Origin: a virus
DNA: 34,172 bases
IMG/VR virus record: IMGVR_UViG_3300024262_000132
Location: 1-34,172 of that record
Direction: 5' to 3' (one strand)
Under the pieces are notes generated by a model, which worked only from the letters and a program-made list of their open reading frames with translations, ran no database searches and had not been told where the DNA came from. A program made the position numbers and the translations under genes. Shown in pieces: positions 1,514-28,361 of the stretch (the stretch's first letter is position 1; each line of letters starts with the position of its first letter).

Positions 1514-1514
1514 A

Positions 1515-1766
1515 ATGAGTGAAGTAAAAGACAAAATTTACGTAGGAAGTGGAAAATCAAAGTTCGATGGAGACCAAGTGGCTGTGTCGGTATGTTTAAC
1601 TGATCTTCCAAAAGAATGGATTTTTGAGTACAATAACAAAAAATACGTTAAGTTATTAGTACAGAAAAAAAGAGAAGTAGACCAGTATGGTAAGACACAT
1701 TATGTGGCCATTGATACTTTTAAACCTGAAGCAAAAGTTGAAACTGAAGACGATGGTCTTTTCTAA
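1515..1766 (+). CDS. Small protein with SSB-like acidic C-terminal tail (83 aa)
   Basis: An 83-aa protein of unknown family. Residues 1-70 look like a compact beta-rich fold with many lysines (KWIFEYNNKKYVKLLVQKKREVD is not contiguous with known motifs but is strongly basic). The last 12 residues form an acidic tail ending TEDDGLF. Tails of this kind, acidic with a terminal Phe, are used by single-stranded DNA-binding proteins such as bacterial SSB (DDDIPF) and T7 gp2.5 to bind partner proteins. It sits directly after the recombination pair and before a terminator, so a role in ssDNA handling is reasonable but inferred. Its start follows AAATAAAATG, the same leader as the first gene. Confidence 0.7.
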   Translation: MSEVKDKIYVGSGKSKFDGDQVAVSVCLTDLPKEWIFEYNNKKYVKLLVQKKREVDQYGKTHYVAIDTFKPEAKVETEDDGLF

Positions 1767-1787
1767 ACCAACGAAGAACTTAGAGAT

Positions 1788-1810
1788 AGGGGCTTTTGCC
1801 CCTTTTCTTT
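1788..1810 (+). terminator. Rho-independent terminator after recombination operon
   Basis: A perfect 6-bp stem, AGGGGC (1788-1793) and GCCCCT (1798-1803), closes a TTTT loop and is followed by TTTCTTT. It lies 22 bp after the stop of the 83-aa gene and would end the transcript of the annealing protein/exonuclease operon. Confidence 0.85.
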
Positions 1811-1820
1811 GCTTAAAACT

Positions 1821-1834
1821 GTGACAAATGTCAC
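1821..1834. promoter_or_regulatory. Perfect palindrome, CRP-like operator
   Basis: GTGACAAATGTCAC reads the same on both strands. With its flanks it is TGTGA-N6-TCACT, which differs by one base from the CRP/FNR-superfamily consensus TGTGA-N6-TCACA. It is likely a binding site for a dimeric regulator. No regulator gene of that family is seen in the window, so a host protein is the simplest candidate. Confidence 0.45.
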
Positions 1835-1994
1835 TTTTTACGGAGTTTTAATGAACTCTATAATAAAAAAATATTAATCAACTATAATTATCTATACTTC
1901 TTTATATATTATTAACATTATTAACATAAAATAATATAAGTAATTAAACTACAGCAATTTGGATAATTTAAAATCGACATAAAACTGACATAAA

Positions 1995-4406: not shown

Positions 4407-4407
4407 T

Positions 4408-5646
4408 ATGGAGTTTAGAGAATATCAAACAGAAATAATAAATAAGGCCAAGCCTTTATTGCAAAAAGATAAATTTGTTTATCTTGCAATGGAGGTAAGG
4501 ACTGGTAAAACTCTCACGAGCTTGGGTGTAAGTGCGCTTTTGCCAGTATCGAACCTTTTATTTATAACAAAGAAAAAAGCTATAAGTAGTATACAAGATG
4601 ACTATAAACTCCTTAACCCTTCTTATAGTATTACTGTTATTAATTACGAGTCATTACATAAAATAGACCAATTAGGTTGGGATATGGTGGTGTGTGATGA
4701 AGCTCATGGAATGGGTGCGTTTCCTAAAAGAAACAAACGATCCACGCAAGTTCGTTCTTTGATTTTAGAAAATGATCCTTTTGTAATATTTCTATCAGGA
4801 ACACCAACACCCGAATCTTTCAGTCAAATGTACCATCAAGTATCTGTAGTTCGTAAACACCCGTTCAATAGTTATGTAAACTTTTATAAGTTTTCTAAAC
4901 ACTACGTAAATGTTAAGCAAAGAAAAATCAATTCTTTTATCATAAACGATTACTCTGATGGTTTACAAATCATTATTGATGAAATGAAACCTCACACAAT
5001 CGCTTACACTCAAAAAGAAGCTGGGTTTAAAATAAAGACCAGGGAGCATATATTGGAAGTTGAAATGAGTCCAATAACATATCAGTTAACTAATAAGTTA
5101 AAAAAACATTTAGTTGTTGAAGGTGCTGATGATGTGATATTGGCAGATACACCAGTAAAATTAATGATGAAGTTGCACCAAATGTATTCTGGAACTGTGA
5201 AGTTTGAGTCTGGAAACTCTATGATTCTGGACTTAAGTAAAGCGCAGTTTATACACGATAATTTTGCTGATGCAAAAATAGGAATATTTTATAAGTTTAA
5301 GGAAGAGCTTAATGCATTGAAAGAAATTTATGGAGATCAGTTATGTACTGATTTAAGTACGTTTAATGAAACTAATAAAACCATAGCTTTACAAATTGTA
5401 AGTGGTAGAGAAGGAATTAGTTTACGTAAAGCGGATGCTCTTGTTTATTATAATATAGATTTTTCAGCCACCAGTTACTGGCAGTCCAGGGATCGTATGA
5501 CAACTAAAGAAAGATTAGAGAGCGATGTGTACTGGATATTTTCTCGTGGAGGAATTGAATCTGACATATACAAGGCCGTTATAAAGAAAAAAGATTATAC
5601 CTTGAGGCACTTTAAAAGAGATTTATTAACTTTAAATCAAATATAA
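4408..5646 (+). CDS. SF2 DEAH-box helicase
   Basis: A 412-aa superfamily 2 ATP-dependent helicase/translocase. From ATG 4408 the motifs are: Q-like motif FREYQ at the N-terminus, Walker A EVRTGKT (29-35, Lys34), Walker B DEAH (97-100), motif III SGTPTP (130-135), a motif V region VSGREGISLRKAD and motif VI QSRDRM (359-364). The short length with both RecA-like domains is typical of compact phage SF2 helicases related to the SNF2/UvsW side of the family. I preferred ATG 4408 over an in-frame TTG at 4396, because it begins one base after the primase-helicase stop and needs no overlap. It probably remodels forks or recombination intermediates; the substrate cannot be told from sequence. Confidence 0.88.
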   Translation: MEFREYQTEIINKAKPLLQKDKFVYLAMEVRTGKTLTSLGVSALLPVSNLLFITKKKAISSIQDDYKLLNPSYSITVINYESLHKIDQLGWDMVVCDEAHGMGAFPKRNKRSTQVRSLILENDPFVIFLSGTPTPESFSQMYHQVSVVRKHPFNSYVNFYKFSKHYVNVKQRKINSFIINDYSDGLQIIIDEMKPHTIAYTQKEAGFKIKTREHILEVEMSPITYQLTNKLKKHLVVEGADDVILADTPVKLMMKLHQMYSGTVKFESGNSMILDLSKAQFIHDNFADAKIGIFYKFKEELNALKEIYGDQLCTDLSTFNETNKTIALQIVSGREGISLRKADALVYYNIDFSATSYWQSRDRMTTKERLESDVYWIFSRGGIESDIYKAVIKKKDYTLRHFKRDLLTLNQI

Positions 5647-8546: not shown

Positions 8547-11500
8547 TTAGTTATACATTTCGTCTAAGTATTTTTTTCTTAAATCTCTTTGCTCTTTTTT
8601 CATTTGTTTTTCTAATTGTAATAATTCATTTATATCATCATCTTCTACATCTGGATACATTTCTGGAAAATATCTTTTAAGTTCCGCTTTAGTTAATTTA
8701 TTCCTATTACGTCCTCCTTTTTTACCTTGAGCGTATTCAGAAAAATTAAATACTTTTAAAATAAATTCCCCTAAATTTTTTGAGTCTCCAATCGTGCTAA
8801 AGTTCTTCATCATTTTACGAAGCTGTCCAGCTGGTATACCTGTCAATGAAATTGCTTCAGCCATAAATTTATTAACCTTTTCTTCTCTTTTAATTGGATC
8901 TTTAATTTTACCGATATCAGTATATAACTTAGCTAATAAAGCAGTTTGCCCTAAGACTGGTATTGTAGATGGTGTGCCTACCCATGGTTTACCAGCCGCA
9001 GCTTCAAGCGCTGATTCTATAACTTTACCAATAATAAATAAAGCATTTAAGTTCCCCATAGCAGCTGCTCTTGCAAGTTCTGCCTTGTCTTCATCATCAG
9101 AACCTCTTAAAAGTCCTGGAAGACCTTGAGACACCCACTGAAATAAAACAGGCATAACTACGTGGTACAATGCTAAACTTCTTCCAGCCTTTACTAAACT
9201 TTTCACGTAATCTAATTCCCCATTATCTTTTAAAACACCTTTACCTTGTTTACCACCGCTTTTTATAATACGATACATGTTTCTCGCTGCAATAATTTCT
9301 CTACGAAAATACTGTTTTGGAGTTGTTAGGAACATATTAAAGGCTCTAACAAAAGCTCCTTTAGTTTGTAAATAATCTTTGTCCTGTAAATCATATGACT
9401 GCTGAGTTCTTAACGTGTCAGCTTCAAATTTTATAATAGCATGATCGATTGCTTCTTGTTCTGTAGCGTTAGGATTTTTCTTTTTAAATTTATTTTTATA
9501 ATATAAATAATTAGGAACACCTCCAACTAAAATAGCTCCTTTATCACCAGCCATTGTAGTCCACATTAGTATTTTACTGATTTGGTCTTGCTTGGTATTA
9601 GTTAAACCAAATTTTTCAAGTAAGCCACCATTCATTCTTTCAAACTTATCATCGGTATAACTTTCTACAGCTCTACTAATACTTTTACCGTATCTGTCTT
9701 GTAGAACTACTGAATTATTTAAAACTTCTTTAACTAAAGTACTTGCTTTAACAGTACTCATAGCCGCGTTTTTGACCCAATTTAAATAACCAATGTCATT
9801 ACCATATGTAACAAATGAAGTCATCTGTTTTAAAATAAGTGTTGGATTTAAACCTAATCGAGATAATAAAAAAGTATTATTAAACGTATTTATTATTTTA
9901 GTTTCGTTTTGAGTTTGTATTCCTTTATTGGCAATTTTTGTAATAGAGTCATTAATATACTTCCATATTTGTGGTCCAAACTTATCCTTAATAGTTTCTT
10001 TAATTAATGGTGACTGAAATATTTTATTAATATTTCTAATTGGAATTGCATATGCAGCAAAATACTCCATGTCTTTGGTGTAATTCAATAATGCATCTAT
10101 ACCATCTGATTTATTTATTGGATTAGTGTTTGCTACCCTTGCTTTAGTACTGGCAGCACCAACATTTGTTATCCATGACTGACTATCTGCTAATAAATCT
10201 AACCCTTCAGCTTCATTTTCGTTTTGTCTATAAACTCTACCAGCATAGAATTGATTCCATGGCATATCAGTTCTATACACTTCTTTGTAAGTGTTATTAT
10301 AATGATCGTATGATTCTGGATAATATTCTCCTATCATCCATTCTGACAATTGAATTAATTTGTCATCTAATTTATCAGCAATCTCTTGTTTTATACGACT
10401 ATTAAATTCATTCTCAAAAGTCTCATTTCCTAATCGTGTAGCATCAAAAGTATTAATCATACTTTTATTTAACGAAGGATCTTGCATTTGAGAATAATAA
10501 TAAAGTAATTGGTTCTGACTAATACTCATAGTGTTCTCTCCTATTTTCTTTTCTATCTCTTTTACTTTAGCAGCTACTTCTGATTTATTTTTTTTAGTAA
10601 TAGTTTTTTTAATCTCATTTAACTGGTCTTGTAACATTTCTGCTTTTACTACACTACGAACAATAGTTTCACTTTCTTGTGCATTTTTTCTATTTTTTGC
10701 TGTCCATCTTTTACCGAACAACTCAGTCATTTTTTCAGAAAAAATTAATTGTTGGTTAAGCATTCTTCCTTTAAACATTCTTGAAGCTTTACGTATTTCT
10801 TTCTGAGTTATTTCTTGAGTCGCTCCTTCAAATATTTCTCCTGGTTGTGTTGAAATTCTATCAATTAATCCAGTCATATCTTCTGCCGTACCAAACACAC
10901 CCTGCTCAATAGACGAGAGTACACTGTTTATAGAACCTCTAAATCTTTTTATAACACCCTTTACTTTTAAACCTCCACCTTCTTTAGCATCAAGAGCAAT
11001 ATCTTTACTCATTTCACGAAATTCTTTATTAATCATGTATTCCGTTATTTCATTTTCAGGAATTCCTTGATCAATGAGAGATTGTTTAGCATCTAAATCA
11101 ACACCTGTCATGTCTTTATATACAGCTCTGTCATTTTCTCTGTATTTAATTGCATCCTGTAATAATTGGTATTCAAGATTTGCTTTTCCAGTAGTTTCAA
11201 TTTGATTAAGACTACTTACTACTGAGTTTAAATGAGTGGTTTTATTAGGGTCATTCATTTCTTGAGTAAATGAAGTATTTATCTGCATAGCTAAAGTAAT
11301 CTCAGCCATTGCTTCTAAGTCATTCTCAGAAAAATCTTTCTTATTAATTGTAACAACATCTCCACCTTTTTCACCTTCAACCTCTTCTTTTGCAATTTTA
11401 TTAAATTTATCTAATAATTTACTATTTGCTTTTGTTATTTCTTTTTCAGTTGCATCTGGATTTATTACACTTATAATTTTTCCGTTTTTATCCTCAATTT

Positions 11501-14500
11501 TTTTACTTATTATTAATTTATTTATACGGTTTAGTTTTTTACGTGTTTTGTTATCTATTTTAACACCTTTAAACCTACCACTTTGAACTACAGTGTAATC
11601 TTTTTTAAGTATTTCAAAAAGAATATTCTGAAGACGAGTATTAGTCTTTATTGTTACTATTTTAAAAACCTCATCCTTAACTGAATCAAAATTAGTAGCA
11701 TCAACTCTGTTTATTTTATCTATTAAATCAGTGATTTCTTTTTTAGTGTACAAGTCTCTTGGAAGAACCATACGAATATAATTTCGTAATGCTCTTTGAA
11801 CTCCTTTAATATTTTTCTCGTCAAATTTTATGTTTTTAATTCTTTTATTTATAGCAGCAATACGCTGAGGATTAGCTTTTAAAGGGTCTGGAAGAAGTAT
11901 TTCTAACATATCACGTTCCATTGCGAGTTGCTGAGATGTTTGTCTTTTACCTTTAACACCTGCGCTTTTATAACCAGCCTGGTTCATGAAAAAATCTAAA
12001 ACTTTTAAATTAAGTTGCTCGTCTGATAAAGGAATTTGTTTTGTTTTTTTATTTTTCTTTATCCTGTCTTTTATTAAATTGTTGTCTTCAACTAATTTTT
12101 TATAGTAGTTGTCAACCTGTTTCATTAATTTAAGACCAGCTAAGAAACCACCTTTTATGTCGTTAAAACTTTTAGGATACTCTCTAAACATGTAAGAGTC
12201 AAAAGCTTCACTTTCTAAAACTTTAAACGCACCCTTTATTTCTTTTGCAGTGTAGGCTGGTTTAGTTTTGCCATCAACTTTTCTTTTTCTTCGTTTTAAA
12301 TAATCTAATATTGCAGCATCTGTAAATCCACCTTCTTGTTTACCAGCTACAATGACTCTTAATAAATCATTTTCATTATCCATTACTTGCTGACGGCCTG
12401 TTCGAGTAGGGTTTTTAACTCTCCCTTTAGGACCAATCACAAAGACACCGCCACCGCCACCATAAGCTCCTAACTTAGCTCTGTAAGCTGTGTATCCTGG
12501 ACCAACTCTATTCCACTGACGCTGTATATCAGACACCATAGCTTGAGCGCTGTAAAAGCCGCTTCCTGGCATTCCAGTTTGATCTTTTATTTGTTGCTCA
12601 GTAGACTGCTCTCTACCTTCTCTTATTTCTGATTTTACAGTAGCTACTTTAGGGCCTGAACCAGCACTACTCGCTACGTTTGAACTTTTAAACTTACTTT
12701 TCTTAAAATCTTCAAATGTACCAGAGAATGGAGCTTTACCTGATGCTATTACTTTTTTACCTTGTTTGTTTTTTCTGTATTTTCTGGTGTCCTTAAGAGC
12801 TATTTTATATAACTTTTCTAATGAATTTCCTTTTGAATCTTTAACATCAGTTTTTGTAGAAACAACTACCTCATCTTTATTAAACTTAGTATAGGAATCA
12901 GTAGCTTCAGTACTTTGATAAAACGTTGTAGGTTGAACAATTGCTTTTATTTTTGCTCTTACTGTCCATGCAAAAGAAGGATGATAATCAGCATCTCCTT
13001 TTTTTGGTCTTGAAGGTGCTTCAAAAGTAGTATTATCAAACTCTATAACACCAATTAAATCAAAAGCTTTACTACCTACATTCATAGGATCTTCTAATTT
13101 TTCAGCAAATTGAATTTTATTTTTAACACCTAAAGCGTTCTTGACTTTATCATTAGCAGCTATTTTATCGTTTAATATTTTTCTTAAATCTGGTGAATAA
13201 TTATTATCAATATCTAACAGTTCAACTAATTTTTTAGGATTTTCTATAAAATCATTTAAGTTGTTTGTGTTTTTTAATTTAGGAAGGTTACTTCCTTTTT
13301 TTGATTGTGCTTTTGAATATGCTTCAGTAAATGTCTTTAAAGCAGATTTGCCATCCTTACTGGTTAAACCACTATTAAAACTTTCAATTAATTCTTTATT
13401 GGTTATAATATTGTTATCTAATAATTTTTCAGTTAATTGAGCAAAAATATTTTGTTGAAACTGCCACGAACCTTCTTTAGTTCCTACGTGTGGAGCAAAT
13501 AAATTCGCATCACCATCAATAGAATTTTTTATAAATCCTTCAGCATTTTCTTTACTATTAAAAGCAGCAAGATTAGAAACTTCTCCTAATTTAGCTCCTA
13601 TTTTTTCCATCATGTCAGCAACATAATTTTTACCTCCATATAAGTCTAATACAATACCAGCACCTATATCAGTTGGTCCAGCATTTGTAAAGTCATACAT
13701 GTTAGTCACAAAGTTTTGTCCTTTATAATCTTGAATATCTTTCTGAATAATATTTTTTGCATAAGGTCTGGTGTCAGTGTTTATGTCTGGAGCTTTTGAT
13801 TCTCTACCTTCAAAAGTAAAAGTACCAACTTGCCCAGACTCACCCTGTTCTTGCTCTATATCTAATTCTTTGTCAATTTTATTTAAAACATCGACATCAG
13901 CTTCTGTAATTTCAGTACCAGTTCTAACTTTTTGAGAAAATGTATTAAGAAAATCAATAACAGACTCATCTGTTTTACCAAATCCACCAGGTATTTCAAC
14001 ACCTACCTTCGCAGCCATTGATCTTATAAATTCAATTATTTTGTTTTTTGCTGGTTTCTTTAATGTTTTATATTCATTAGACATTAACGAGAATAATTCA
14101 GCTAAATATTCTTCATCTTTAAAATTCTCATCATAATTTTGAGCAAACTTATCTATTCGTTTAGCTAACATAGAGTCAGCTGGTAAGGTTTTTCTTACAG
14201 CTGTTATTAATTTTTTAGCAGCTAATTGAGCTTGAACGTCTCCACCTGATATTTTTTCTAAAAATACCGCATGAAAAACTTCGTGTGCTACTGTATTACC
14301 TTTGGCTTTAGTTAAATTAATATGTATAACCTTACTATTAGGATTGTAGTAACCCCTGCTATTTTTTGTCCCATATTTCTCATACTCAGCTTGAGTATCA
14401 TGTAATACAATTTTTACATTAGGAGCGAGTTTTTTAATTGCACGTGCTGCTTTTTTAGCTTTGTTAACAACAGCAGCTGCCAGAGATGTGTTTTCAATTT

Positions 14501-17500
14501 CAGTGCTTCCTTCTTTTTGTTTACGGTTTATAGATAAATTATCTGAAGTTGTTTCTACTTCATCTAAAACTGTATCTCCAAAAAAGTCATCAATATCATT
14601 TTGATCGTCTTTACTTACTTTCGTTTTGGACTTCGTTTTGTCTTTGGTTTTATTGCTGGTGTCACCCTCGTTGGAAGATTGCTCGTTGGATATGTTTTGT
14701 CCCACCTCTTCGCTATTTGTGGTAGATTCTTGTGCATCCAGGCTCTCTGTGCTTTGCTTTTGTAAGGCATCTTGTTCGGTTTTTATTTGTTCAACTGTAG
14801 GGTTTTGCACCCCCTTATCTTGTAAAGATTTTGTGGCATCTTCTTCTGTAATTAAAACAGATTTTTTAATTCCTTCAGTTTCATTTTTTAAATTAGTATT
14901 AGCTTGAGCTTGATCAGTACCTAACTGACCAATTGATTCTTTTATTTCTTTTACTCTTGCCTCTTTTGTCTTATAAGAATTTAAATTCTTATCAATCTTA
15001 GACATTTCAGCTTCTAATTTTTGTTGTTCGTATATTAATAATAATCCTTTTTTTCTTGAATTTGTATCTAAATCACTTGGTAATGTATTTGATGCTCCGC
15101 TTAAAGTTTCAAAATCTAATAAATTTTGATCGGCTTTTTTTTGTGTTATATTTCCAGCTGCTACTTCTAAGTCTAATTTAGTTTTATAAGAAGCTTTTGT
15201 TATTTCATCGTTTCTAATCATATCAAAAAGCTCGACCATATCATCAGATATAAGCTCTTCACTTCCTCTCTTGGCTGCGTTAATTACAGCTCCAGGCACA
15301 CCCATAACAAAACCACCAACAGCTTCTGCCGCTGCCGCATGTCCAACAGTTTTCCAAAACTCTCCACTCCACATTTCAGGTTGGTCAAACATTTCCTTAT
15401 TGTTCATGTTATTCCACACATCTTTATAACCCATTTCAGCAATTTGCTGTAGACCACCAGTTTCAGCTTCTGCCATTGTTGCTCTTGCAACTCGATTAGT
15501 AAACGTCATCGTAGCTTTAACTGCTTTATTAGACAAAAGACCTTTAGCAATTCTGTTTTGCACAACCTTGTTCATAGTATTTCTAAACATAACTGCGGTT
15601 GCTCCTTTAGGTAACATATTAGTTACCGTATTCATTAGACCAGTTACTATAGTCTTGTTTCCTATTAAGTGTCTAAAACCTAAACGCTCTAATATACCTA
15701 CTGTAATAGCTGTAGGTATAACAATATTTTTTCTTTCTGACTCTGTAACATACTTAAAGTCAGGATCGTTGTTCATCTCTTCATTCATGGCTTCAGCCTG
15801 TAATAATGAAAACGAAACAGTTTGAGCTATCCCTCCTTTAGTAGTTAAACCTAAACCTCTTGCAATTAAATTTCTTTTAGCAGCTCCAATACCTACAGCT
15901 GGAGCAATTTTACCTCTTGATAAATATGAAACCAATACAGACGGAAGTGATTTAGCAAGACCTGTAAGCCCTTCAGTTACAGGAATGCCTAAGAAATCAG
16001 CAACACCATCTCTATTTTGTTTTTGAAATTTTTCGTCTGAAATATCATCTTGAGATAAAATCTCATTTAAGTATTTTTTAACAAAATCTTTTTGTGGTTT
16101 TTTATTTTCTTTAACCTCTTGGTCTAATACTAATCTTTTTAATCTTTCACCTCTTGTTTTGTCATATGCATAATCAGGAAGTTCAATGTAATCACCATCT
16201 AAAAATTTATTTAATCCAGATTGATTTTTATTAAAGAACTTACCGTTTAGTGTTGGTTTACTTAAATCATAACCATCAGCTTCAAGTCGTTTTAAAGTTT
16301 CTTCAGAAAACAAACCTTCAGAAATATTTCTTAATCTATCTTCATCTTTTACTTTTTCTTCACCATCAAGGCTTTGATCCTTCATACCTTCTAACCATTT
16401 TGTGTAAACAGCTTCATCCTCTATATTTTCAGGGACTGGGTACTTAAGATCTCTTGCTATATCAATGTAACGATCTTTTTTTTCTTGAGGAGTCATTCCA
16501 AAATCTTCGTTTACAGACTGTACTAATTTGTAAAACCCATCAACACCACCACCCCAAAGAGCCGCAAGGTTATCGCTAATACCAGGGCCAAGAAAGGTGT
16601 TAAGCAACCCTCCAGCGTATGTGCTATCATCAGCTTCTTTCATGTCGATATAATTTCCGACAGATGAGTCAACTAATGTTTTAAGTTTTTTGTATTCCTT
16701 AAAATTATCTCCTAATACGTTTCGTGTTTGCTGTAATCTCTTTCCAGCAGCTAAAGCAAGTTGATATTTTACTTGCCATTCAGGGGTTGCTTTTATTTCT
16801 TGGCTCTGCCCCATCAAAACATCCATTTCAGATTCTTGTGTAGTCTGAGCGTCTAAGTAAACTTTATATTTTGTGTTAAGGGCTTTAGCTGTATTTTCAA
16901 CATCTGCTATATCCTCTTTTGTTCCTTCACGACTAAAATATTTTTTTCTATTTCTATCGTATCCAGTTGTTAGTTCTGCCATTTTACTGTCAGTTCTTCT
17001 GTTGGCTTTTAAAAATTCTTTAAGTTCTTGTGCAGGTCCTGACTCACCACCAAATATATCTCCAAAAACAGGATCAAGATTAACATTAATACTTTTAGTT
17101 GGGTCATCTTTAGATGTAACAGTCATGCCATCAAGTCCATCAAACATACTACCACCTTGCTCAAAATTAAATCCATAATCTTCAAAATGATATTTCATTC
17201 TGTTAACTACCTCAGACGCTTCTCTGTCAATTAAATCTTTAGTTACAAAAGCCAAAGATTTATCAAACTGTGAGTCTGTTGAATCGTAAGTAATTGGATT
17301 AGCATTAATCTCTTTCCCTTGCTCACGAGGATCGTAAGCAGGGTACTCGGTAACCATGGTGTCTTCTTGCTCTACATCTACTACAGTATTGTCACCTAAA
17401 GGTGTTTCAACTATGGTAGAATCCACAGAAGTATCTACGACCTCTGGAGTTTCGGTAGTAGAATCCGTAATAACCTCCTCCACATTTGACTGAGAAGTTT

Positions 17501-17708
17501 CGTTTGGATTTTTTTTTTCTACACCAGGGAAATATTCAACATTAAAATTCTCCGAATCTAAGTCTGTTAACTTTTCATCTTTTAGATAAGAATATAGCTC
17601 TGTATTTTTAGCAGTTCCAGCCGCATATTGAACTTTAAATTCTTCAGAAGATAAATCTGTTAAACCTTCTTCTTTCAAATAATTGTATAACTCTGTAAAC
17701 TTATCCAT
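8547..17708 (-). CDS. Giant polyvalent internal virion / DNA-ejection protein with metallopeptidase motif (3053 aa)
   Basis: At 3053 aa it fills over a quarter of the window and sits in the T7 gp16 position, last of three probable ejection proteins. Visible parts: two 31-aa repeats at 5-62; a Thr/Val/Asp-rich linker to about 110; helical regions; hydrophobic Gly/Ala stretches near 580-640 and 786-812 that could enter membranes; a low-complexity Lys/Asp linker near 1040; a zincin-type HEVFH (His1142, Glu1143, His1146) with a later ELF Glu1204 as candidate third ligand; long Lys/Ile-rich helical stretches; and a C-terminal region (about 2600-2960) with FVRAFNMFLTTPKQYF and hydrophobic helices near 2842-2868, resembling the LPD38 domain of large polyvalent phage proteins. 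It is probably ejected with the DNA to build a conduit and process host targets. No N4-type RNA polymerase motifs or lysozyme motif were seen. Its start overlaps the upstream stop (TAATG). Confidence 0.82.
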   Translation of the reverse strand: MDKFTELYNYLKEEGLTDLSSEEFKVQYAAGTAKNTELYSYLKDEKLTDLDSENFNVEYFPGVEKKNPNETSQSNVEEVITDSTTETPEVVDTSVDSTIVETPLGDNTVVDVEQEDTMVTEYPAYDPREQGKEINANPITYDSTDSQFDKSLAFVTKDLIDREASEVVNRMKYHFEDYGFNFEQGGSMFDGLDGMTVTSKDDPTKSINVNLDPVFGDIFGGESGPAQELKEFLKANRRTDSKMAELTTGYDRNRKKYFSREGTKEDIADVENTAKALNTKYKVYLDAQTTQESEMDVLMGQSQEIKATPEWQVKYQLALAAGKRLQQTRNVLGDNFKEYKKLKTLVDSSVGNYIDMKEADDSTYAGGLLNTFLGPGISDNLAALWGGGVDGFYKLVQSVNEDFGMTPQEKKDRYIDIARDLKYPVPENIEDEAVYTKWLEGMKDQSLDGEEKVKDEDRLRNISEGLFSEETLKRLEADGYDLSKPTLNGKFFNKNQSGLNKFLDGDYIELPDYAYDKTRGERLKRLVLDQEVKENKKPQKDFVKKYLNEILSQDDISDEKFQKQNRDGVADFLGIPVTEGLTGLAKSLPSVLVSYLSRGKIAPAVGIGAAKRNLIARGLGLTTKGGIAQTVSFSLLQAEAMNEEMNNDPDFKYVTESERKNIVIPTAITVGILERLGFRHLIGNKTIVTGLMNTVTNMLPKGATAVMFRNTMNKVVQNRIAKGLLSNKAVKATMTFTNRVARATMAEAETGGLQQIAEMGYKDVWNNMNNKEMFDQPEMWSGEFWKTVGHAAAAEAVGGFVMGVPGAVINAAKRGSEELISDDMVELFDMIRNDEITKASYKTKLDLEVAAGNITQKKADQNLLDFETLSGASNTLPSDLDTNSRKKGLLLIYEQQKLEAEMSKIDKNLNSYKTKEARVKEIKESIGQLGTDQAQANTNLKNETEGIKKSVLITEEDATKSLQDKGVQNPTVEQIKTEQDALQKQSTESLDAQESTTNSEEVGQNISNEQSSNEGDTSNKTKDKTKSKTKVSKDDQNDIDDFFGDTVLDEVETTSDNLSINRKQKEGSTEIENTSLAAAVVNKAKKAARAIKKLAPNVKIVLHDTQAEYEKYGTKNSRGYYNPNSKVIHINLTKAKGNTVAHEVFHAVFLEKISGGDVQAQLAAKKLITAVRKTLPADSMLAKRIDKFAQNYDENFKDEEYLAELFSLMSNEYKTLKKPAKNKIIEFIRSMAAKVGVEIPGGFGKTDESVIDFLNTFSQKVRTGTEITEADVDVLNKIDKELDIEQEQGESGQVGTFTFEGRESKAPDINTDTRPYAKNIIQKDIQDYKGQNFVTNMYDFTNAGPTDIGAGIVLDLYGGKNYVADMMEKIGAKLGEVSNLAAFNSKENAEGFIKNSIDGDANLFAPHVGTKEGSWQFQQNIFAQLTEKLLDNNIITNKELIESFNSGLTSKDGKSALKTFTEAYSKAQSKKGSNLPKLKNTNNLNDFIENPKKLVELLDIDNNYSPDLRKILNDKIAANDKVKNALGVKNKIQFAEKLEDPMNVGSKAFDLIGVIEFDNTTFEAPSRPKKGDADYHPSFAWTVRAKIKAIVQPTTFYQSTEATDSYTKFNKDEVVVSTKTDVKDSKGNSLEKLYKIALKDTRKYRKNKQGKKVIASGKAPFSGTFEDFKKSKFKSSNVASSAGSGPKVATVKSEIREGREQSTEQQIKDQTGMPGSGFYSAQAMVSDIQRQWNRVGPGYTAYRAKLGAYGGGGGVFVIGPKGRVKNPTRTGRQQVMDNENDLLRVIVAGKQEGGFTDAAILDYLKRRKRKVDGKTKPAYTAKEIKGAFKVLESEAFDSYMFREYPKSFNDIKGGFLAGLKLMKQVDNYYKKLVEDNNLIKDRIKKNKKTKQIPLSDEQLNLKVLDFFMNQAGYKSAGVKGKRQTSQQLAMERDMLEILLPDPLKANPQRIAAINKRIKNIKFDEKNIKGVQRALRNYIRMVLPRDLYTKKEITDLIDKINRVDATNFDSVKDEVFKIVTIKTNTRLQNILFEILKKDYTVVQSGRFKGVKIDNKTRKKLNRINKLIISKKIEDKNGKIISVINPDATEKEITKANSKLLDKFNKIAKEEVEGEKGGDVVTINKKDFSENDLEAMAEITLAMQINTSFTQEMNDPNKTTHLNSVVSSLNQIETTGKANLEYQLLQDAIKYRENDRAVYKDMTGVDLDAKQSLIDQGIPENEITEYMINKEFREMSKDIALDAKEGGGLKVKGVIKRFRGSINSVLSSIEQGVFGTAEDMTGLIDRISTQPGEIFEGATQEITQKEIRKASRMFKGRMLNQQLIFSEKMTELFGKRWTAKNRKNAQESETIVRSVVKAEMLQDQLNEIKKTITKKNKSEVAAKVKEIEKKIGENTMSISQNQLLYYYSQMQDPSLNKSMINTFDATRLGNETFENEFNSRIKQEIADKLDDKLIQLSEWMIGEYYPESYDHYNNTYKEVYRTDMPWNQFYAGRVYRQNENEAEGLDLLADSQSWITNVGAASTKARVANTNPINKSDGIDALLNYTKDMEYFAAYAIPIRNINKIFQSPLIKETIKDKFGPQIWKYINDSITKIANKGIQTQNETKIINTFNNTFLLSRLGLNPTLILKQMTSFVTYGNDIGYLNWVKNAAMSTVKASTLVKEVLNNSVVLQDRYGKSISRAVESYTDDKFERMNGGLLEKFGLTNTKQDQISKILMWTTMAGDKGAILVGGVPNYLYYKNKFKKKNPNATEQEAIDHAIIKFEADTLRTQQSYDLQDKDYLQTKGAFVRAFNMFLTTPKQYFRREIIAARNMYRIIKSGGKQGKGVLKDNGELDYVKSLVKAGRSLALYHVVMPVLFQWVSQGLPGLLRGSDDEDKAELARAAAMGNLNALFIIGKVIESALEAAAGKPWVGTPSTIPVLGQTALLAKLYTDIGKIKDPIKREEKVNKFMAEAISLTGIPAGQLRKMMKNFSTIGDSKNLGEFILKVFNFSEYAQGKKGGRNRNKLTKAELKRYFPEMYPDVEDDDINELLQLEKQMKKEQRDLRKKYLDEMYN
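17523..17696 (-). repeat. N-terminal tandem 31-residue repeat in the giant protein
   Basis: Residues 5-31 (TELYNYLKEEGLTDLSSEEF...) and 36-62 (TELYSYLKDEKLTDLDSENF...) align without gaps with about two thirds identity, sharing ELYxYLKxExLTDLxSExFxVxY. The 93-nt period is diverged at the DNA level, so it is an old duplication under protein-level selection. Confidence 0.85.
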
Positions 17709-20959: not shown

Positions 20960-21367
20960 TTATACTGTTTTTATTATTTCGTAGGATGCTTTTGTATCTA
21001 CGTTATATTCTAATTTTTTAAAAGTATCCATTAAATGTTTATTTCTCCCAATGTTAAATATATATTTTTTTCCATTAGCTTTTACATATTCTTCACATGT
21101 TAAAATTAAAAATTCAATAGCATCCTGTCTGTCATCATCTCTATAAGATGGATCAGAAACAATCCATTCTAAAAGAGCCATTTTAGAATTTGTAAAATAT
21201 ATAAAACCTGCTACAATAGGAACATTATCTTTTTCTACTATAAATCCACCTGTGCCATTCTCTGGGAATCCATCTTTAGGGGGGGTTGTCCATTCTGGCC
21301 ATTTATCCCACCAAGATGATAATGTGTCCCAATCGCTGTCTTTAAGTTTTCGTATATTAAATTTCAT
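20960..21367 (-). CDS. GNAT-fold acetyltransferase-like protein in the virion operon
   Basis: A 135-aa protein with the outline of a GNAT domain: N-terminal MKFNIRKLKDSDWDTLSSWW, strands GGFIVEKDN and VAGFIYFT, the core strand LLEWIVSDPSYRD (65-77), a long helix and a final KKLEYNV segment typical of GNAT strand 6. The acetyl-CoA loop, normally (Q/R)xxGx(G/A), reads DDDRQDAIEF (77-86) and lacks the glycines, so catalysis is doubtful. Similar small GNAT-like proteins occupy the T7 gene 13 position in other podoviruses, just ahead of the core proteins, so it may be a structural or assembly protein. A TAnnTTTG promoter-like site is 18 nt upstream. Confidence 0.7.
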   Translation of the reverse strand: MKFNIRKLKDSDWDTLSSWWDKWPEWTTPPKDGFPENGTGGFIVEKDNVPIVAGFIYFTNSKMALLEWIVSDPSYRDDDRQDAIEFLILTCEEYVKANGKKYIFNIGRNKHLMDTFKKLEYNVDTKASYEIIKTV

Positions 21368-21400: not shown

Positions 21401-22228
21401 CTATGGATAACTTTTTATCACACTACTTCCTACAGAAAATAATTCAACTGGAGATGTAGAGTTGTTTTCTAACTTAAATTCTAAGTAATACCCTCTTGCT
21501 CCATGTGACTCTGCAACTGCGTTTTTAATGTACATTATAAATTGTCCAATTGTTGGAACTGTACTTCCTCCTGGAGAAGCATTTACAGTAATACTTGTGC
21601 TTGATTTTGCAGTAATTTCTCCTATTAAAATAGGTGCTGTAGTTGCGACTCCAGCCGTTAAAGTAGCTGCGTATGCTATATCTCCAATATTTAGAATTGA
21701 GCCAACAGACGTTGCAAAAACAATTATAGTTGCAGTATTTGGTCCACTTACTCCTGTACATACACCTACGCCATTAGCAGAACGTTGTTTCCAATTTACT
21801 GTACCAGCATTTGTTCTAAGATAACTAAACCACTCTCCTTCTTTTTCTTCAAAATAAGTTTCCAACATTGATCCTGGACTTCCATCTGTTAAATCAGTAA
21901 GTAGTCGTGTACATTGCCATCTTGCTTCATTGCTATCAACTACCGTTGTCGTTGCTTCGTATGATAATGTTTTAAATAATTTAATACTTAAAGTAGGCTC
22001 TGGATTAAACACACTTGTGATTGTAGACGGTGCTTGTGTTCCTGGAACTCCATAATATTCATTTCTATTTGCGTTTGTATTATGCCTCCATATATTACCA
22101 CCCTTAAAACTATAAAAGAAACTATTCATTCCTATCATAAAATCAGGTATAAATGAGTAAAATGAAGGCCATCCTTTAGATGATTCGCTATATGATAATG
22201 TATATTCTGAATTACATTTTGTTGCCAT
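21401..22228 (-). CDS. Tail hub/tip structural protein (275 aa)
   Basis: A 275-aa virion protein. Residues about 10-60 contain YSESSKGWPSFYSFIPDFM then FYSFKGGNIWRHN, a motif set I associate with tail hub or baseplate-like proteins of crAss-like and marine Bacteroidetes phages. The middle (about 152-233) is Thr/Ala/Val-rich with GVCTG...NIGDIAY...GQFIMYIK, resembling an inserted small beta domain also suspected in two other virion proteins here. The end is a beta-rich LEFKLENNSTSPVELFSVGSS. The gene lies between a probable adhesin and the GNAT-like gene. The structural role is well supported; the exact position in the tail is inferred. Confidence 0.7.
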   Translation of the reverse strand: MATKCNSEYTLSYSESSKGWPSFYSFIPDFMIGMNSFFYSFKGGNIWRHNTNANRNEYYGVPGTQAPSTITSVFNPEPTLSIKLFKTLSYEATTTVVDSNEARWQCTRLLTDLTDGSPGSMLETYFEEKEGEWFSYLRTNAGTVNWKQRSANGVGVCTGVSGPNTATIIVFATSVGSILNIGDIAYAATLTAGVATTAPILIGEITAKSSTSITVNASPGGSTVPTIGQFIMYIKNAVAESHGARGYYLEFKLENNSTSPVELFSVGSSVIKSYP

Positions 22229-22256: not shown

Positions 22257-23558
22257 TTACGGACACGAAAATATAGTTTGAACAACCCCTGATCCGTTTA
22301 CTGTCGCTGTGTCTACCACACCATTTCCTACGTCAGCTGGACCCATTCCTCTATAGTCACTCCACGTAACCGTTATTGTTCCAATACTTGATGAATAAAT
22401 TGTATCTCCAACTTGAGGTAAAGTTCCAGATCCGTTATGATATAATAGTGTACCTGTTGCATTACCACACGTGCCGTCATTTAAAGTAGTAGTTCCTGAT
22501 GTGGCAAAAAACGAAGTGTAAGAAATGCCTGAACAATTTCCTCTTGACACTACAACTCCATTTCTTACACCAAGTGCAGTAGTTCCACCTATTATGTAAT
22601 ATTTTATAGTAGACGTATCATTTAAATACGTTGAGCCATTTGCGTCTGAAAAAACCCAATTACCTATATTTGGAGTTGTGTTTGTGTCTATACTAAAAGG
22701 AGTTGCTGTTCCTGTAGCATTCCGAGCAAAATAATATGTTGTTGTAGCTGCTGCACAAGCTGTCGTACTTTGAATTGCTGAAGCAGTAAAGTTTGGTAAA
22801 ACTATTGGACAATCTACTTCCCATCTAAAAAGTGTTCCACACAAAGGTGCGCTAATTAAAACAGTAACAACAGTTGGGCTACTTGTTGTTTTAGGTACAA
22901 CCAAAGTAAAAACTTGACTACCAGTTGGATTACAGCCTACCTGCGCAGATACTGCGGTAACAGTTTGATATGTACCTTGAGCCACATATGTTGCTGGATT
23001 TCCAGTTAAAGTGTAGTCTTGTGGTTTATCGCTATTAGAACAACCACCACTTGGAATGTTATTAAAAGGTGACTGAGCAAGTAATTGAGGAACTTGAGTG
23101 TCACTTCCCACATATGTTACATTTCCAGTCCCTTGATTTCCAATTCCAGCATAATCTACTGTAGTACCAGAACCATCTACAATAGAAGTAGTGTTGTGGT
23201 TTCCTCCACATGTTAATCGATTATATTGTGTCCCATTATATGTTATACCTACACCATCTGGGATTGAATTTCCCATATAAAAATATAAAATTGAAGCTCC
23301 TATAGTGTTACCTAAATCTACTGTAGCTGTAAATAAACCATTAGCAGAAAAAGATCCTTCTACACCTGATCCACAAGGAACTAAACATTCTGAACATGGT
23401 TGAGCATTTAATAAAACACCATTTAATTGTTGTCTTATAATACCACCTTGAGAATACCAACCATCTGGGGCAAGAGTAGTTAAGCCTGAGTCTGTAAACA
23501 AAGACGTAGCTTGCGAAAAATTTAATCCATCAAAACAATATGTTCCTAATGCTGCCAT
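22257..23558 (-). CDS. Probable receptor-binding/adhesin tail protein (433 aa)
   Basis: A 433-aa, Gly/Thr/Ser-rich, almost all-beta protein with scattered cysteines (e.g. PCSECLVPC near residues 55-63). The N-terminal module (ATSLFTDSGLTTLAPDGWYS) and the C-terminal module (LLYHNGSGTLPQVGDTIYSS, from residue 371, ending FSCP) look like related small beta domains. The C-terminal module recurs at the end of the adjacent 1596-aa tail protein. Composition, location after the tail nozzle gene and this mosaic of cell-surface-like modules suggest a host-recognition fibre or tip. There are no catalytic motifs. A depolymerase is not excluded, but I see no sign of a long beta-helix. Confidence 0.6.
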   Translation of the reverse strand: MAALGTYCFDGLNFSQATSLFTDSGLTTLAPDGWYSQGGIIRQQLNGVLLNAQPCSECLVPCGSGVEGSFSANGLFTATVDLGNTIGASILYFYMGNSIPDGVGITYNGTQYNRLTCGGNHNTTSIVDGSGTTVDYAGIGNQGTGNVTYVGSDTQVPQLLAQSPFNNIPSGGCSNSDKPQDYTLTGNPATYVAQGTYQTVTAVSAQVGCNPTGSQVFTLVVPKTTSSPTVVTVLISAPLCGTLFRWEVDCPIVLPNFTASAIQSTTACAAATTTYYFARNATGTATPFSIDTNTTPNIGNWVFSDANGSTYLNDTSTIKYYIIGGTTALGVRNGVVVSRGNCSGISYTSFFATSGTTTLNDGTCGNATGTLLYHNGSGTLPQVGDTIYSSSIGTITVTWSDYRGMGPADVGNGVVDTATVNGSGVVQTIFSCP

Positions 23559-23570
23559 TTATTTATTTAT

Positions 23571-26500
23571 TTATGGGCATGTAGTTACTGCTGTAACTAA
23601 GCCAAATTGATTTACTGTTATATAATCTGTTGAACTTATTTTGTAAAGTCCTGTTGATAAATTACTTCCAACAGCTCCGTCTGAAGAAGAATATACAAAA
23701 TCTTGATATACTGGCAACGTATTACTTCCAGAATGATAGTAAGTAATATTTAAAGGCTGGTTACAAACATTTGCTTCTGTACTAAAAACCGTACTACTTA
23801 AATATGATGTGTATGTAAAAGCACAATCACAACAAGCCGAAGCCGCAGAACTTGCATCAAAACAAAACTCTTGACAACTTGTTAATCTATAATCATATAT
23901 TAAATATAAATATTGATTTGCAAGTGGTAAAGATAAATTATTTAATGTTGTTTGATACAATCCAGACGATGGGTTAGTTACAGATCCATTTGATACTGTA
24001 GTAGCTGCTGCCAATAATGAAGTTATGTCAGATTGATTGTTTTCATACAATGTATTACTGGATAAATATTTAAAATTATCATTAGGATATCCCCAATCAT
24101 AAGTATCAAAATTTATTTTATTAGAACGAATTGTTAAATCTACACCATCATAAGGAAAAACCCCTAAAGATCTTACTCCTGTTTGAGCGTCATAGCTTGA
24201 AGCTACTAAACTGTTTGAGCCAAATTCTGCTAAATCTGAATCGACTGGACTAATATTAGCACTATCTTCCCAATTATATTCTACATGAATAAATTCTCCA
24301 TTTTGATCACCAGAATTCATAACTACCTTTACAACAGTTATATTTATTGGTGTTACACATTCAGCTGTTACAGTAAAAGATGCAGTTGTTATTGCTGTAA
24401 ATGTTACAGTAGCATTAGAAGGACTGTTAAGAGTTTTTTCAAAACTAAATGTTCCAGACCCTGTTAAAGTAGTGCTTGTTGTTGTAACACCATTCCATAA
24501 CACTGAAATTGTTATTGATCCAGAATTTATGTTGTAATTAAAATTAGCTGTTCCAATTAAAGCACCATAATTTATAACACTAACAATAGCATTTGCACCC
24601 CCTGTTGATAATCCATTTCTTTGTAATCTATAGCCACATTGAGCAATATCTGGTGGTAAAGGAATTTGATCGCAATTCATTCCTAACACATATTCATCCA
24701 TGTAAGGATCATAACCGCCTAATTTCTGTGTTTGAATAGATTCATAAAACTCATCCCTAAACCAAGAACGCATTCCTTGTTGAGATATTACTTCTAAAGA
24801 ATCATTATCTCTGGTTGTACCTCTTAATTTTAATACAGCACCTCTTTTTACATCAGTAAAAAACATGTCATACCCATGAGCTACAAAGCTTTCAGGATTA
24901 TAACTAATACCAAACTCTTCAATACGAGCTATTTGAGTTCCTAAAATTTGAGGAACTGATGCAATAACACCACCACCAGTACTGTCACTAATTAAGTTTT
25001 TACTTGCTAATACATAACTAATTCTATCTTCTTGTAAAACTAAAATATCTGTTTCTCTTGGATGCATTTTTTGTATTGGACCAAAAGAAGTTTCTAAATC
25101 TTTAAAATTTATTAATCCTAAATTAAACTCATTAAGATTATTAACACCACTATTACTACTAAAAACACCACTATAAGTTATACCTTCAAATCTATCAGCC
25201 TCTTTAAAATCTTGATTAGAAACTGCTAAAGTTCTTTGACCTAATTGAAATGGTCTCCCAGCCAATTGATCTTTTATTTTATAACTTTCAACACCGTTTC
25301 CAAATGAAAAACAATCTCTAAAATTTAAATTAACTATAGCATCTTGAGCAGCAGTTTGATTTTGATCGTTGAATTCTGTGTTAGATCCAGATAAATGAAA
25401 CCCATCTGGTTGTGAAATAGAAAAAGATTCCGATGCATCATAATATAATTCTGCATTTGCATCAGCTGGTTCTGTTTCAAAAACAATTAATGTATTTGCT
25501 CTAAAAACTATTAATTCAACTTCTAAATCTGAATATCTATCACGTTGAGGAGGAACTCTTCCACATCCAGGTACTCCTGAAGAAACTCCTAAATATAAAG
25601 GATCAGTTGGTAATGCAGTTGAAGCTTGTATCCATTGAAATGTAAGATCAAAAAATGTGCAATTTATGTTGTCTGCTACTCCAATCACACCAACCGCAAC
25701 TAAAGTAGTATCATTTATTGTAGTAGTTTCCTCGTCAATATTTCCAGGTTGTGCAAGAGATGGGTTTATATTGTCTCCAACCCACCATCTTCTCATGTCT
25801 GAATAATCTCTTGTTGCTACATAATCTTGTTCCCATTCCCATAATCTTTGCTCACAGCTATTTCCATTAAATGTGTCGTTACGAAACATTCTCATTTTTA
25901 CTCTTATAACAGAGCCTCCTGGAACATCATAATTATTTGTTGTTGTTATTGGAGCAGCTGGATCAGAATTATCTACTAATGTTGTAAAACAAGGATAACC
26001 AATTTTTCTGAGATTTGTACAACCTCTCGCTTTTGATGAGGCTTTTATATTTCCAAGTTCTACTATAGAATCATCAGGGATAACAATATTAAAATTTTGA
26101 TTTTTAATAAGCATGTATAACCCTTTTAATTGAAAACTTTCGGCTCCAAGTTCATTGATAGTAGCTAAAAAATTTGTGGCTTCTGGAGATATTTCTAAAA
26201 TTTCACAAGTTTCAACTCTTGGTAATGCACCACTAACATCAGCCTTTACAATAAGTGTTTGTCCTTTTTGGACTTTGTTTGCGTTATCTCCCTCAAGTCT
26301 AAAGAAAATCATGTTATCACTTGGTCTAACATAATAAAAATTACAAAATATAGTTTCATAACCTGCTTTACTTGGTTTGACTACAAACTTATATCGTTCT
26401 GCCCAATATGGCGCTCTGGATGATATAGCAACTTGTATACTATTTGCGGTAGTACTATTACCAGGTTCCACGTAAACAGTATTATACTCAGATACTAAAA

Positions 26501-28361
26501 CTGTAGAAGATCTACCATATTCATCACTGTATACAATACCTGTTTCAAAATCACGATCACTATGTAAACTACCAGTATCTAAATCTGTTGTAAAACCACC
26601 TTCTACAGATGTAAATCTAAAATATTCAAATAAATTAGTTATAATTGGAGCAGCTGGATCAGTAGTATCGGTTGCTCGAAAGTTCATAGCAATTAACTGA
26701 ATCTCACAAGTATTTAATCCTGGTGTTGCATTAATTGAAAACCCTTGTTGTAATGTAGCATCTGTAATACCACTATTAAATTTAACAAAAGGAAAACTAC
26801 CTTCAACTGGAGGAACTAATTCATTATTAAAAAAATCAGTCAAAGAATTACCTTGATCAGCTGTAGCAATAGGCTCAAAATTAGTATTAAGAATAGTTCC
26901 AATACGCTCTGCAAACAAAGAACTATTAAAAAAATCATACGGACTTGAATAATCTTGATCTAATGTTATATTTAAATCTATTTCAAAATCAAGATTTTTA
27001 AAATTTATATTAGCAGTGGCTTCATTAGAATTTGTTGGAACAAATACTCTTTTTTCGCTTGTAAAACTAAATGTAAGTCCTATTAAAGAATTGGTTTTTA
27101 ATTTATCTGCAATTAATGTAAAATCTATTCTAACTTTTGAATTTTCTATATCTTCAATTCCATTAAGTGTATAACTAACTCCAGTAGATAAATTTCCTGA
27201 TGGCAATTCCGCAAAACCTAAAATAGTATTAATTAAACTTGTGTTGTAATCAACAGCAATTGAGCTTCCGTTTGCGTCTGGTCTTGAAATATTATAACCA
27301 TCTACGTAGTTGCCGTACATTAAACGATTACCTTGTATAGTTTGAGCTTTTGCTAATCTTGGAACATTATCATATTGCCTAAGTAATTCGTCATTACCTA
27401 ATACTGTATAAGTTTTATTATTAGTAAACGTATAAGTTTTATTAGTGTTATTAGCCCAACCAAAATCTTCTTTTTTAAACCTTTCAATTACATTTAATGT
27501 ATTTGAATTTGTGTCTTTAAATAATAAATCAACTTCTTTTACTCTTGAGCTACCTGTAGAAAATTCAACTACAACACCATTGTAAAGATTTAACATACCC
27601 TCGTTACAATAGTTTTTTGTATCAAATTGAAATGGACGAGGAACAAATGCTGGTATAGTAAATAAAGAAGTTGCGCTATATTGCCCATCTTCATATCTGT
27701 ATCTATAAGCAAAACATAAAAATCTATTTTCAATATAATTTTCATTTCCTGCAATATTTAAAAAACTTATTTTTGGAGCTGGTAATGGAATGTGTGAATT
27801 TACAATATTTTCAAAACCAGGAGGCTTTACTATTACAGATATATCTTCTTCTATAATTTGATCTACATTTGAAATTGGCTCTGCATAACTTTTATTTATA
27901 TTTATTGTTCGAGGTGGATTTATATCATCTGTCCAAAACAAAAGATTTTCAACTAAATCAATTCCTGTTATTAAATACAAAGGATCAAAATTTAAAAGTG
28001 CTGTTGTAATTATATGATAATTAACTATTTGATTAGTTGTATTATATGATACCACTAAATCTACAACACCTCCAGGAGCTTGAGTATTTGAACCGTCATG
28101 AATAAACCAATAAATAGTTTCTTTAACACCATCTTCATATGCTCCTATACATACAGCAGCAGCACTTAAGGCCGCTCCATTGTATTCAATAACAGTAAGT
28201 TGTTCATTTCCTCTTGAGTTTTCTACAGCTCCTATTTCAGTAGCTTCAGTAGAACCTAAACGAACATTCATTGCATCAATATATTCACCTGGCGGAAGAA
28301 GTCTTTCGTCCACAGATTTATTCATTCTACCTGCAATAAAATTTGTTGTAACTATTGGCAT
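23571..28361 (-). CDS. Tail nozzle / stabilization protein (T7 gp12- or P22 gp10-like), 1596 aa
   Basis: A very large beta-rich tail protein. The first 45 residues contain TTNFIAGRMNKSVDERLLPP and GEYIDAMNVRLGS, the hallmark start of phage stabilization or tail-nozzle proteins (family of P22 gp10, role like T7 gp12): it would form the tail tube end below the adaptor rings. The middle contains repeated WD/propeller-like strands and an FTDVKRGAVLKLRG segment. From about residue 1290 there is an Ig-like stretch (SITISVLWNG, FSFEKTL, ATVTFTAI), then a cysteine-rich segment (CQEFCFDASS, CCDC, near 1495-1515) and a terminal module (YYHSGSNTLPVYQDFVYSSS, ending TTCP) shared with the 433-aa protein. 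The extra C-terminal domains, beyond the usual nozzle length, may bind the receptor. Confidence 0.8.
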   Translation of the reverse strand: MPIVTTNFIAGRMNKSVDERLLPPGEYIDAMNVRLGSTEATEIGAVENSRGNEQLTVIEYNGAALSAAAVCIGAYEDGVKETIYWFIHDGSNTQAPGGVVDLVVSYNTTNQIVNYHIITTALLNFDPLYLITGIDLVENLLFWTDDINPPRTININKSYAEPISNVDQIIEEDISVIVKPPGFENIVNSHIPLPAPKISFLNIAGNENYIENRFLCFAYRYRYEDGQYSATSLFTIPAFVPRPFQFDTKNYCNEGMLNLYNGVVVEFSTGSSRVKEVDLLFKDTNSNTLNVIERFKKEDFGWANNTNKTYTFTNNKTYTVLGNDELLRQYDNVPRLAKAQTIQGNRLMYGNYVDGYNISRPDANGSSIAVDYNTSLINTILGFAELPSGNLSTGVSYTLNGIEDIENSKVRIDFTLIADKLKTNSLIGLTFSFTSEKRVFVPTNSNEATANINFKNLDFEIDLNITLDQDYSSPYDFFNSSLFAERIGTILNTNFEPIATADQGNSLTDFFNNELVPPVEGSFPFVKFNSGITDATLQQGFSINATPGLNTCEIQLIAMNFRATDTTDPAAPIITNLFEYFRFTSVEGGFTTDLDTGSLHSDRDFETGIVYSDEYGRSSTVLVSEYNTVYVEPGNSTTANSIQVAISSRAPYWAERYKFVVKPSKAGYETIFCNFYYVRPSDNMIFFRLEGDNANKVQKGQTLIVKADVSGALPRVETCEILEISPEATNFLATINELGAESFQLKGLYMLIKNQNFNIVIPDDSIVELGNIKASSKARGCTNLRKIGYPCFTTLVDNSDPAAPITTTNNYDVPGGSVIRVKMRMFRNDTFNGNSCEQRLWEWEQDYVATRDYSDMRRWWVGDNINPSLAQPGNIDEETTTINDTTLVAVGVIGVADNINCTFFDLTFQWIQASTALPTDPLYLGVSSGVPGCGRVPPQRDRYSDLEVELIVFRANTLIVFETEPADANAELYYDASESFSISQPDGFHLSGSNTEFNDQNQTAAQDAIVNLNFRDCFSFGNGVESYKIKDQLAGRPFQLGQRTLAVSNQDFKEADRFEGITYSGVFSSNSGVNNLNEFNLGLINFKDLETSFGPIQKMHPRETDILVLQEDRISYVLASKNLISDSTGGGVIASVPQILGTQIARIEEFGISYNPESFVAHGYDMFFTDVKRGAVLKLRGTTRDNDSLEVISQQGMRSWFRDEFYESIQTQKLGGYDPYMDEYVLGMNCDQIPLPPDIAQCGYRLQRNGLSTGGANAIVSVINYGALIGTANFNYNINSGSITISVLWNGVTTTSTTLTGSGTFSFEKTLNSPSNATVTFTAITTASFTVTAECVTPINITVVKVVMNSGDQNGEFIHVEYNWEDSANISPVDSDLAEFGSNSLVASSYDAQTGVRSLGVFPYDGVDLTIRSNKINFDTYDWGYPNDNFKYLSSNTLYENNQSDITSLLAAATTVSNGSVTNPSSGLYQTTLNNLSLPLANQYLYLIYDYRLTSCQEFCFDASSAASACCDCAFTYTSYLSSTVFSTEANVCNQPLNITYYHSGSNTLPVYQDFVYSSSDGAVGSNLSTGLYKISSTDYITVNQFGLVTAVTTCP

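Follow-up and report, generated by a model that had tools for sequence, protein, structure and literature searches.

The 34,172-nucleotide (nt) virus record IMGVR_UViG_3300024262_000132 (about 34 kb, from a phage of Bacteroidota-type bacteria), referred to here in its entirety as the window, encodes two adjacent tail proteins of 433 and 1596 amino acids (aa) that end in related modules. The larger of the two is the main part of a homologue of the crAss-type phage muzzle, and the gene for the smaller lies in a break in the muzzle gene, with the rest of the muzzle encoded by a gene of its own (Table 1). Both open reading frames (ORFs) lie where the initial annotation of this DNA had placed them, and each stops at Cys-Pro, as it had pointed out. 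The terminal proline is, however, not a general feature, as several relatives stop at the cysteine or run on for a few residues.

Table 1. Features of the muzzle region of the window.
Feature	Positions	Strand	Description	Evidence
135-aa protein	20960..21367	-	Lies after the muzzle cassette in the majority of relatives	phrog_17252, E 1.3e-33
275-aa protein	21401..22228	-	Split-off C-terminal part of the muzzle	crAss_MUZ_C (PF25729), E 1.3e-9
433-aa protein	22257..23558	-	Proposed tail-tip adhesin; gene in the muzzle-gene break	38 IMG/VR relatives
M3	22260..22517	-	C-terminal module of the 433-aa protein, residues 348-433; exchanged part	Alignment, profiles, DNA mosaics
M2	22533..22796	-	Module before the last, 433-aa protein residues 255-342	Profiles, tree
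D	22803..23381	-	Central beta-sandwich, jelly-roll-like, 433-aa protein residues 60-252	VIA-align to 1nqj
M1	23385..23558	-	N-terminal 58-aa module of the 433-aa protein; most conserved part, proposed anchor	hhalign, identity
1596-aa protein	23571..28361	-	Muzzle homologue, main part (phrog_14478)	PHROG match, E 4.8e-223, residues 7-1571
M4	23574..23822	-	C-terminal module of the muzzle, residues 1514-1596	Alignment, profiles, AlphaFold2
EXT	23832..24656	-	Muzzle extension, residues 1236-1510; jelly-roll-like sandwich in the first half, then a Cys-rich end	Co-occurrence with the split; AlphaFold2

The resemblance of the two protein ends is homology beyond chance. Over 88 aligned positions the final 95 residues are 32% identical (31-32%), and their Smith-Waterman score of 101 stands 12 standard deviations (SD) above the mean of shuffled sequences (31.4 +/- 5.7), with none of 2000 shuffles scoring as high. 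When all 136 pairs of C-terminal 95-mers from 17 window proteins were compared, this pair came out on top, the runner-up reaching 42. A profile built solely from the muzzle ends of 22 relatives recovered the 433-aa end from the six-frame translation of the window (E 5e-9), with no other significant match there. The initial annotation was thus right to propose a C-terminal module shared by these two adjacent tail proteins. Its estimate of about 60 residues was too short, since the homologous unit covers about 82-89 aa and begins before the invariant first cysteine.

The module belongs to a larger family, members of which the initial annotation did not notice within the 433-aa protein itself: besides M3, this protein carries a further copy (M2) and a shorter N-terminal relative (M1). 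Comparison with hhalign links M3 to M4 with a probability of 95%, M2 to the further inner modules M6 and M9 with 99% and 97%, and M4 to M9 with 92%. An iterated module profile gave 306 matches, 149 of them distinct, in the collected loci, and it matched 251 of 3919 real ORFs as opposed to none of the 3919 reversed ones. Two cysteines and one glycine are present in all 108 collected module rows, a figure that counts one protein twice and comes from a profile-based collection favoring these invariant residues. The position of M1 in the family is less direct, as its hhalign probability with M2, M3 or M4 is at most 5%. We regard it as a module relative because the M1 and module profiles match the same bacterial stretches (M1 profile E 2.7e-5 in L163, 2.2e-5 in L170 and 2e-4 in L164) and because of its strand order. 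M5, an inner stretch found in some relatives, is unrelated to the module by hhalign. No family in Pfam or NCBIfam covers the modules; for the bacterial Ig-like group 2 family (PF02368) the muzzle end scored 16.9 bits, under the Pfam cut-off of 22.8. The family is unnamed, with an all-beta unit of about 85 aa whose two invariant cysteines could form a disulfide.

AlphaFold2 models, computed with alignments of relatives for the whole 433-aa protein and the C-terminal 372 muzzle residues, reached mean predicted local distance difference test (pLDDT) scores of 88.7 and 85.6, respectively. The 433-aa end is predicted to form strands at residues 348-352, 370-374, 386-388, 399-406, 416-420 and 425-431, and a short turn of helix at 359-361, and the muzzle end strands at model residues 294-298, 315-319, 331-333, 347-350, 355-359 and 364-370, with a helical turn at 305-308. 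Mapped onto the sequence alignment, five of the six strands coincide between the two ends, and the sixth adjoins an insertion. Judged by this strand order the two ends are not unrelated folds, the outcome that was to count against a shared module, and the suspected beta module is borne out by both models. Foldseek searches of the PDB with the two whole models returned nothing at E <= 0.001, and we judged the top matches unspecific. Among the GOLD and SIDT hits, VIA-align aligned D with the collagen-binding domain 1nqj (Z 9.6, residues 58-250, 93 aligned, root-mean-square deviation 2.4), and the first half of EXT (model m3d95369027a0, model residues 13-111) matched the same domain with Z 10.2. 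Both D and this half of EXT may thus have a PPC-like jelly-roll fold; there is no Pfam PPC match, and the C-terminal module lies outside the aligned range. The sequences of D and the EXT first half are linked by an hhalign probability of 15%, and given the weakness of this link we claim only a like fold.

The second feature to have escaped the initial annotation is the splitting of the muzzle around the 433-aa gene. The 1596-aa protein matches the PHROG family of the crAss-type muzzle (gp44 of crAss001; PF25729, PF25731, phrog_14478) from end to end, occupies the corresponding place among the tail genes and shares 39% identity, over 93% of its length, with an MW202828 structural protein; it matches no Pfam family at E <= 1, crAss_MUZ (PF25731) included. 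The crAss_MUZ_C match of the 275-aa protein lies above the family cut-off, and 34 of 34 aligned relatives match as well. Whereas the crAss-type muzzle is one polypeptide, that of the window is two, and at the break it has gained EXT, a terminal module and another gene. The MUZ_C part is contained within the muzzle in phi38:1 (gp97), the elemo phages (elemo gp25) and an Aquimarina locus (L144), and is separately encoded in the window, phi18:3 and MW202828. Fused muzzles run from a YD....EYVL-type stretch almost directly into a YS....GW.SFYSF.PE-type stretch, and it is at the point where they continue that split muzzles diverge into EXT.

This association holds across 74 distinct loci, in which MUZ_C is separate in 68 and on the muzzle ORF in 6: EXT accompanies the split in 68/68 and is present in 0/6 of the others, three of which are broken elsewhere. 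A module ends the muzzle in 51 of the 68 split cases, and an M1 gene occupies the break in 60/68 by a strict rule, a proportion biased by the loci having mostly been found through the 433-aa gene or M1. Loci found through the muzzle or MUZ_C comprise nine that are split and carry EXT (L040, L041, L137, L139, L141, L142, L143, L145 and L146), of which L137 has an M1 gene missed by the overlap rule, and six unsplit here and without EXT (L042, L043, L144, L148, L149 and L150). Three further loci (L138, L140 and L147) were left out of the tally because one of the two parts is absent. In L148, L149 and L150 the muzzle is broken more N-terminally, which leaves the first part on a long ORF and the remainder, together with MUZ_C, on another. 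The order muzzle-EXT-module, M1-D-modules, MUZ_C is kept in nearly all loci. In phi18:3 no separate gene occupies the break, but the end of the muzzle piece gp114 carries D (E 9e-16), a fusion that is our reason for placing D on the muzzle; the record notes detection by tandem mass spectrometry for both muzzle pieces, gp114 and gp115. In L055-L057, EXT and the modules form a separate protein. The 135-aa protein, acetyltransferase-like by the annotation of a single record (MW202828), would be an unexpected small enzyme in the tail operon.

The two window modules differ in their mode of inheritance. Relatives of the 433-aa gene occur in 38 IMG/VR loci, with the same neighbors wherever flanks are present, and have mosaic C-termini, complete single-gene versions ranging from 340 to 513 aa. 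In 17 relatives with 80-85% identity to the window in the muzzle core, M1 is 76-91% and M4 73-85% identical, as against 53-79% for D, 60-84% for M2 and 42-82% for the last module where present; M1 exceeds the muzzle core in most relatives. At the DNA level, L002 and L016 are 90-100% identical immediately ahead of the modules and 97-99% beyond them, compared with 72-83% and an insert of about 220 nt inside, and one muzzle stretch is also at 72-74%. L002 and L009 share C-terminal modules at 94-97% and D at only 63-67%, and the identity of L023 and L029 drops to 45-50% between flanks of about 90% and 80-97%. Muzzles that are 93-94% identical stand beside 433-type genes of different composition (L002/L016 and L023/L038), a comparison of make-up from which L106/L107/L108 and L102/L104 were excluded because they differ by overlapping profile matches alone. 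These mosaics establish that the C-terminal modules of the 433-aa protein are exchanged between close relatives, in agreement with the exchangeable unit first suspected. The muzzle module behaves differently. M4 has diverged in parallel with the muzzle, and the modules of muzzles make up nearly one group of the module tree, in which they need four label changes compared with a shuffled mean of 22.8 (83 columns, many forks open). It follows that the muzzle copy has mostly been inherited with the muzzle, and that the pair in the window is not a recent copy.

Related modules are also found in more distant phages, where they were reached by profiles only, as single module sequences matched none of the phage records by tblastn. 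A profile of lineage sequences alone matches the second half of phi17:1 gp62 (3.9e-9) and phi18:1 gp62 (1.1e-7), and weakly phi38:1 gp86 (0.007). These proteins are 145-150 aa long and start with a different type of N-terminus, 57 aa in length. The family phrog_21885 (145 aa), to which the phi17:1 and phi38:1 proteins belong, carries the same module in its C-terminal half and is matched by three separate module queries, the two window ends (E 1e-3 and 9e-4) and a host module (2e-4). It differs in its N-terminal part and in being a small separate protein behind a tail-type gene; the 433-aa protein starts with M1 rather than the phi17:1 gp62-type N-terminus, its best phrog_21885 stretch being residues 332-395. 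The gp62/gp86-type genes begin on the last base of the tail-type gene, and such 145-151-aa proteins with a one-base overlap recur in several flavophage groups (L173:1071-4453, L172:35610-37207 and L174:1080-4456). In phrog_21885-type proteins the N-terminus is constant and the outer part is either the module or BACON, Maribacter phages having a BACON domain behind the same 57 residues. BACON (PF13004, PF19190) is itself an exchangeable beta domain on Bacteroidota-phage tail proteins and may work like the module. The window modules do not match the PF13004 and PF19190 models, which do detect the control Molly_1 gp62 (3e-10), and the BACON stretch of Molly_1 lacks the modules' cysteine pair. In MW202828, M1 is found with another body.

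In bacteria the module is rare. The lineage profile matched 1/397 genomes of the family of Flavobacterium caseinilyticum, and a broader profile, which includes one of the lineage profile's bacterial matches, found 2/397 at the family, 2/395 at the phylum and 5/299 at the genus level. Read from their sequences, the carriers are secreted or surface-like proteins in five of nine genomes (L164, L166, L169, L170 and L171) and phage-tail-like proteins in the other four (L163, L165, L167 and L168). The profile search proposed at the outset has therefore placed the module at the C-termini both of other phages' tail proteins and of Bacteroidota host secreted proteins. One genome (L164, G737) encodes two adjacent secreted leucine-rich repeat (LRR) proteins, each with two or more tandem C-terminal modules. 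Among 84,980 genomes of bacteria and archaea, M1 gave 57 pattern matches, none of which was confirmed, as opposed to 205 confirmed matches of the same query in viral contigs, 80 of which were kept.

Taken together, we propose that the module is an all-beta domain of an unnamed family that serves as an exchangeable tail-tip adhesion unit in Bacteroidota phages, here located at a split muzzle, and we put the probability of this reading at roughly 0.6. The case for adhesion derives from the conserved N-terminus and variable C-terminus of the 433-aa protein, its adjacency and occasional fusion to the muzzle, the exchange of its modules, the replacement of the module by BACON and its use on host surfaces. 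A conserved M1 followed by variable D, M2 and last module would correspond to the variability pattern of a receptor-binding protein. The module probably helps the tail tip to grip the host cell, and the receptor binding that the initial annotation had raised as a possibility is plausible. Several points weigh on the other side. Of 65 EXT-bearing split muzzles, 14 lack the terminal module, and M4, which is passed on together with the muzzle and conserved to about the same degree, would suit a structural role no less than an adhesive one. The structure matches cover D and EXT and leave the module outside the aligned ranges, so its fold is not shown to be new. PDB sequences gave no match to the 275-aa protein, the 1596-aa protein or profiles A5, A6 and A7, and neither catalytic motifs nor known sugar-binding ones came to light.

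It is conceivable, if unlikely, that the module is instead a structural clamp, with the muzzle and 433-aa modules packing together or on tail partners to hold the split tip, and with no role in receptor choice. The near-single group of muzzle modules, the pace that M4 keeps with the muzzle and the strong conservation of M1 would all be expected of such a part. However, ten loci possess an M1 gene and no muzzle-end module (L123, L040, L143, L141, L139, L135, L133, L046, L132 and L051), from which it follows that M1 is not dependent on M4; phages that are otherwise close differ by replacement of M3; and host secreted proteins carry modules without any muzzle. These last proteins, signal-peptide-bearing LRR/PKD proteins of Bacteroidota genomes, raise the further idea that the module was taken from, or given to, host secreted surface proteins and keeps the same role of binding matrix or surface glycans. 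Host modules do fall within phage diversity on the tree, but their rarity in hosts, the phage-tail-like genes in four of the nine bacterial genomes and an alignment of 83 columns, too few to resolve direction, make this a rather improbable account. Recent copying of one gene's module into the other within this phage lineage, as the initial annotation had envisaged, would explain the adjacency of the genes, the C-terminal position of both modules and the similar YHxGSxTLP stretch in their alignment. We consider it very improbable given an identity of 31-32%, the greater closeness of each module to same-position modules of other phages (59-85% for those of relatives' muzzles) and the separate tree groups, the window muzzle module lying in a 13-row muzzle group (96/89) and M3-type modules in another (99/92). 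Chance or compositional similarity between two ends that are both abundant in serine, threonine and glycine is refuted by the shuffles, the pair control and the reversed database, and can practically be discounted.

Returning to the adhesion unit, a mechanism can be suggested from what is known of crAss001, in which, according to PMC10172136, the muzzle is a hexamer with a seven-bladed propeller and a gate loop and is thought to touch the cell surface and open the gate. The muzzle is the gate protein of the tail tip. In this lineage its chain continues into the extension and, in most loci, a module before ending, and the remaining muzzle is left to a separate gene; the cell-contacting part would sit at the gate protein's break. 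The 433-aa protein, if present in the virion, would be anchored to the extended muzzle by docking of M1, while D, M2 and M3 would meet the cell and may bind carbohydrates or other surface structures, the variable M3 being the proposed point of cell-surface contact. The muzzle's own module could be a constant partner or make the first contact. More tentatively, and with some doubt, we suggest that the tail gate may be a naturally split, two-chain propeller at whose break adhesion cassettes dock and recombine. EXT, the module and the 433-type protein would then signal receptor contact directly to the gate, with the outer modules exchanged and M1, EXT and the muzzle halves fixed.

A short, recognizable and exchangeable module with a conserved anchor would provide a sequence handle for locating the receptor-binding proteins of environmental Bacteroidota phages, in short-tailed and other flavophages alike. 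The module also connects phage tails with host surface proteins, and the split muzzle offers a test case for the coupling of receptor contact to gate opening in crAss-type tails. No description of a split muzzle or of the module was found in the literature searched, which included passages of PMC10172136, PMC10136315 and PMC8776804; this does not prove their absence from print.

Elsewhere in the window, a 3053-aa protein (8547-17708, minus strand) has no Pfam match and is probably a large virion protein; it contains the stretch AHEVFHAVF, which resembles a zinc-peptidase HExxH motif. The early region (21-5646, plus strand) encodes Sak-type single-strand annealing, PDDEXK, BT4734-like and SNF2/ResIII-type proteins.

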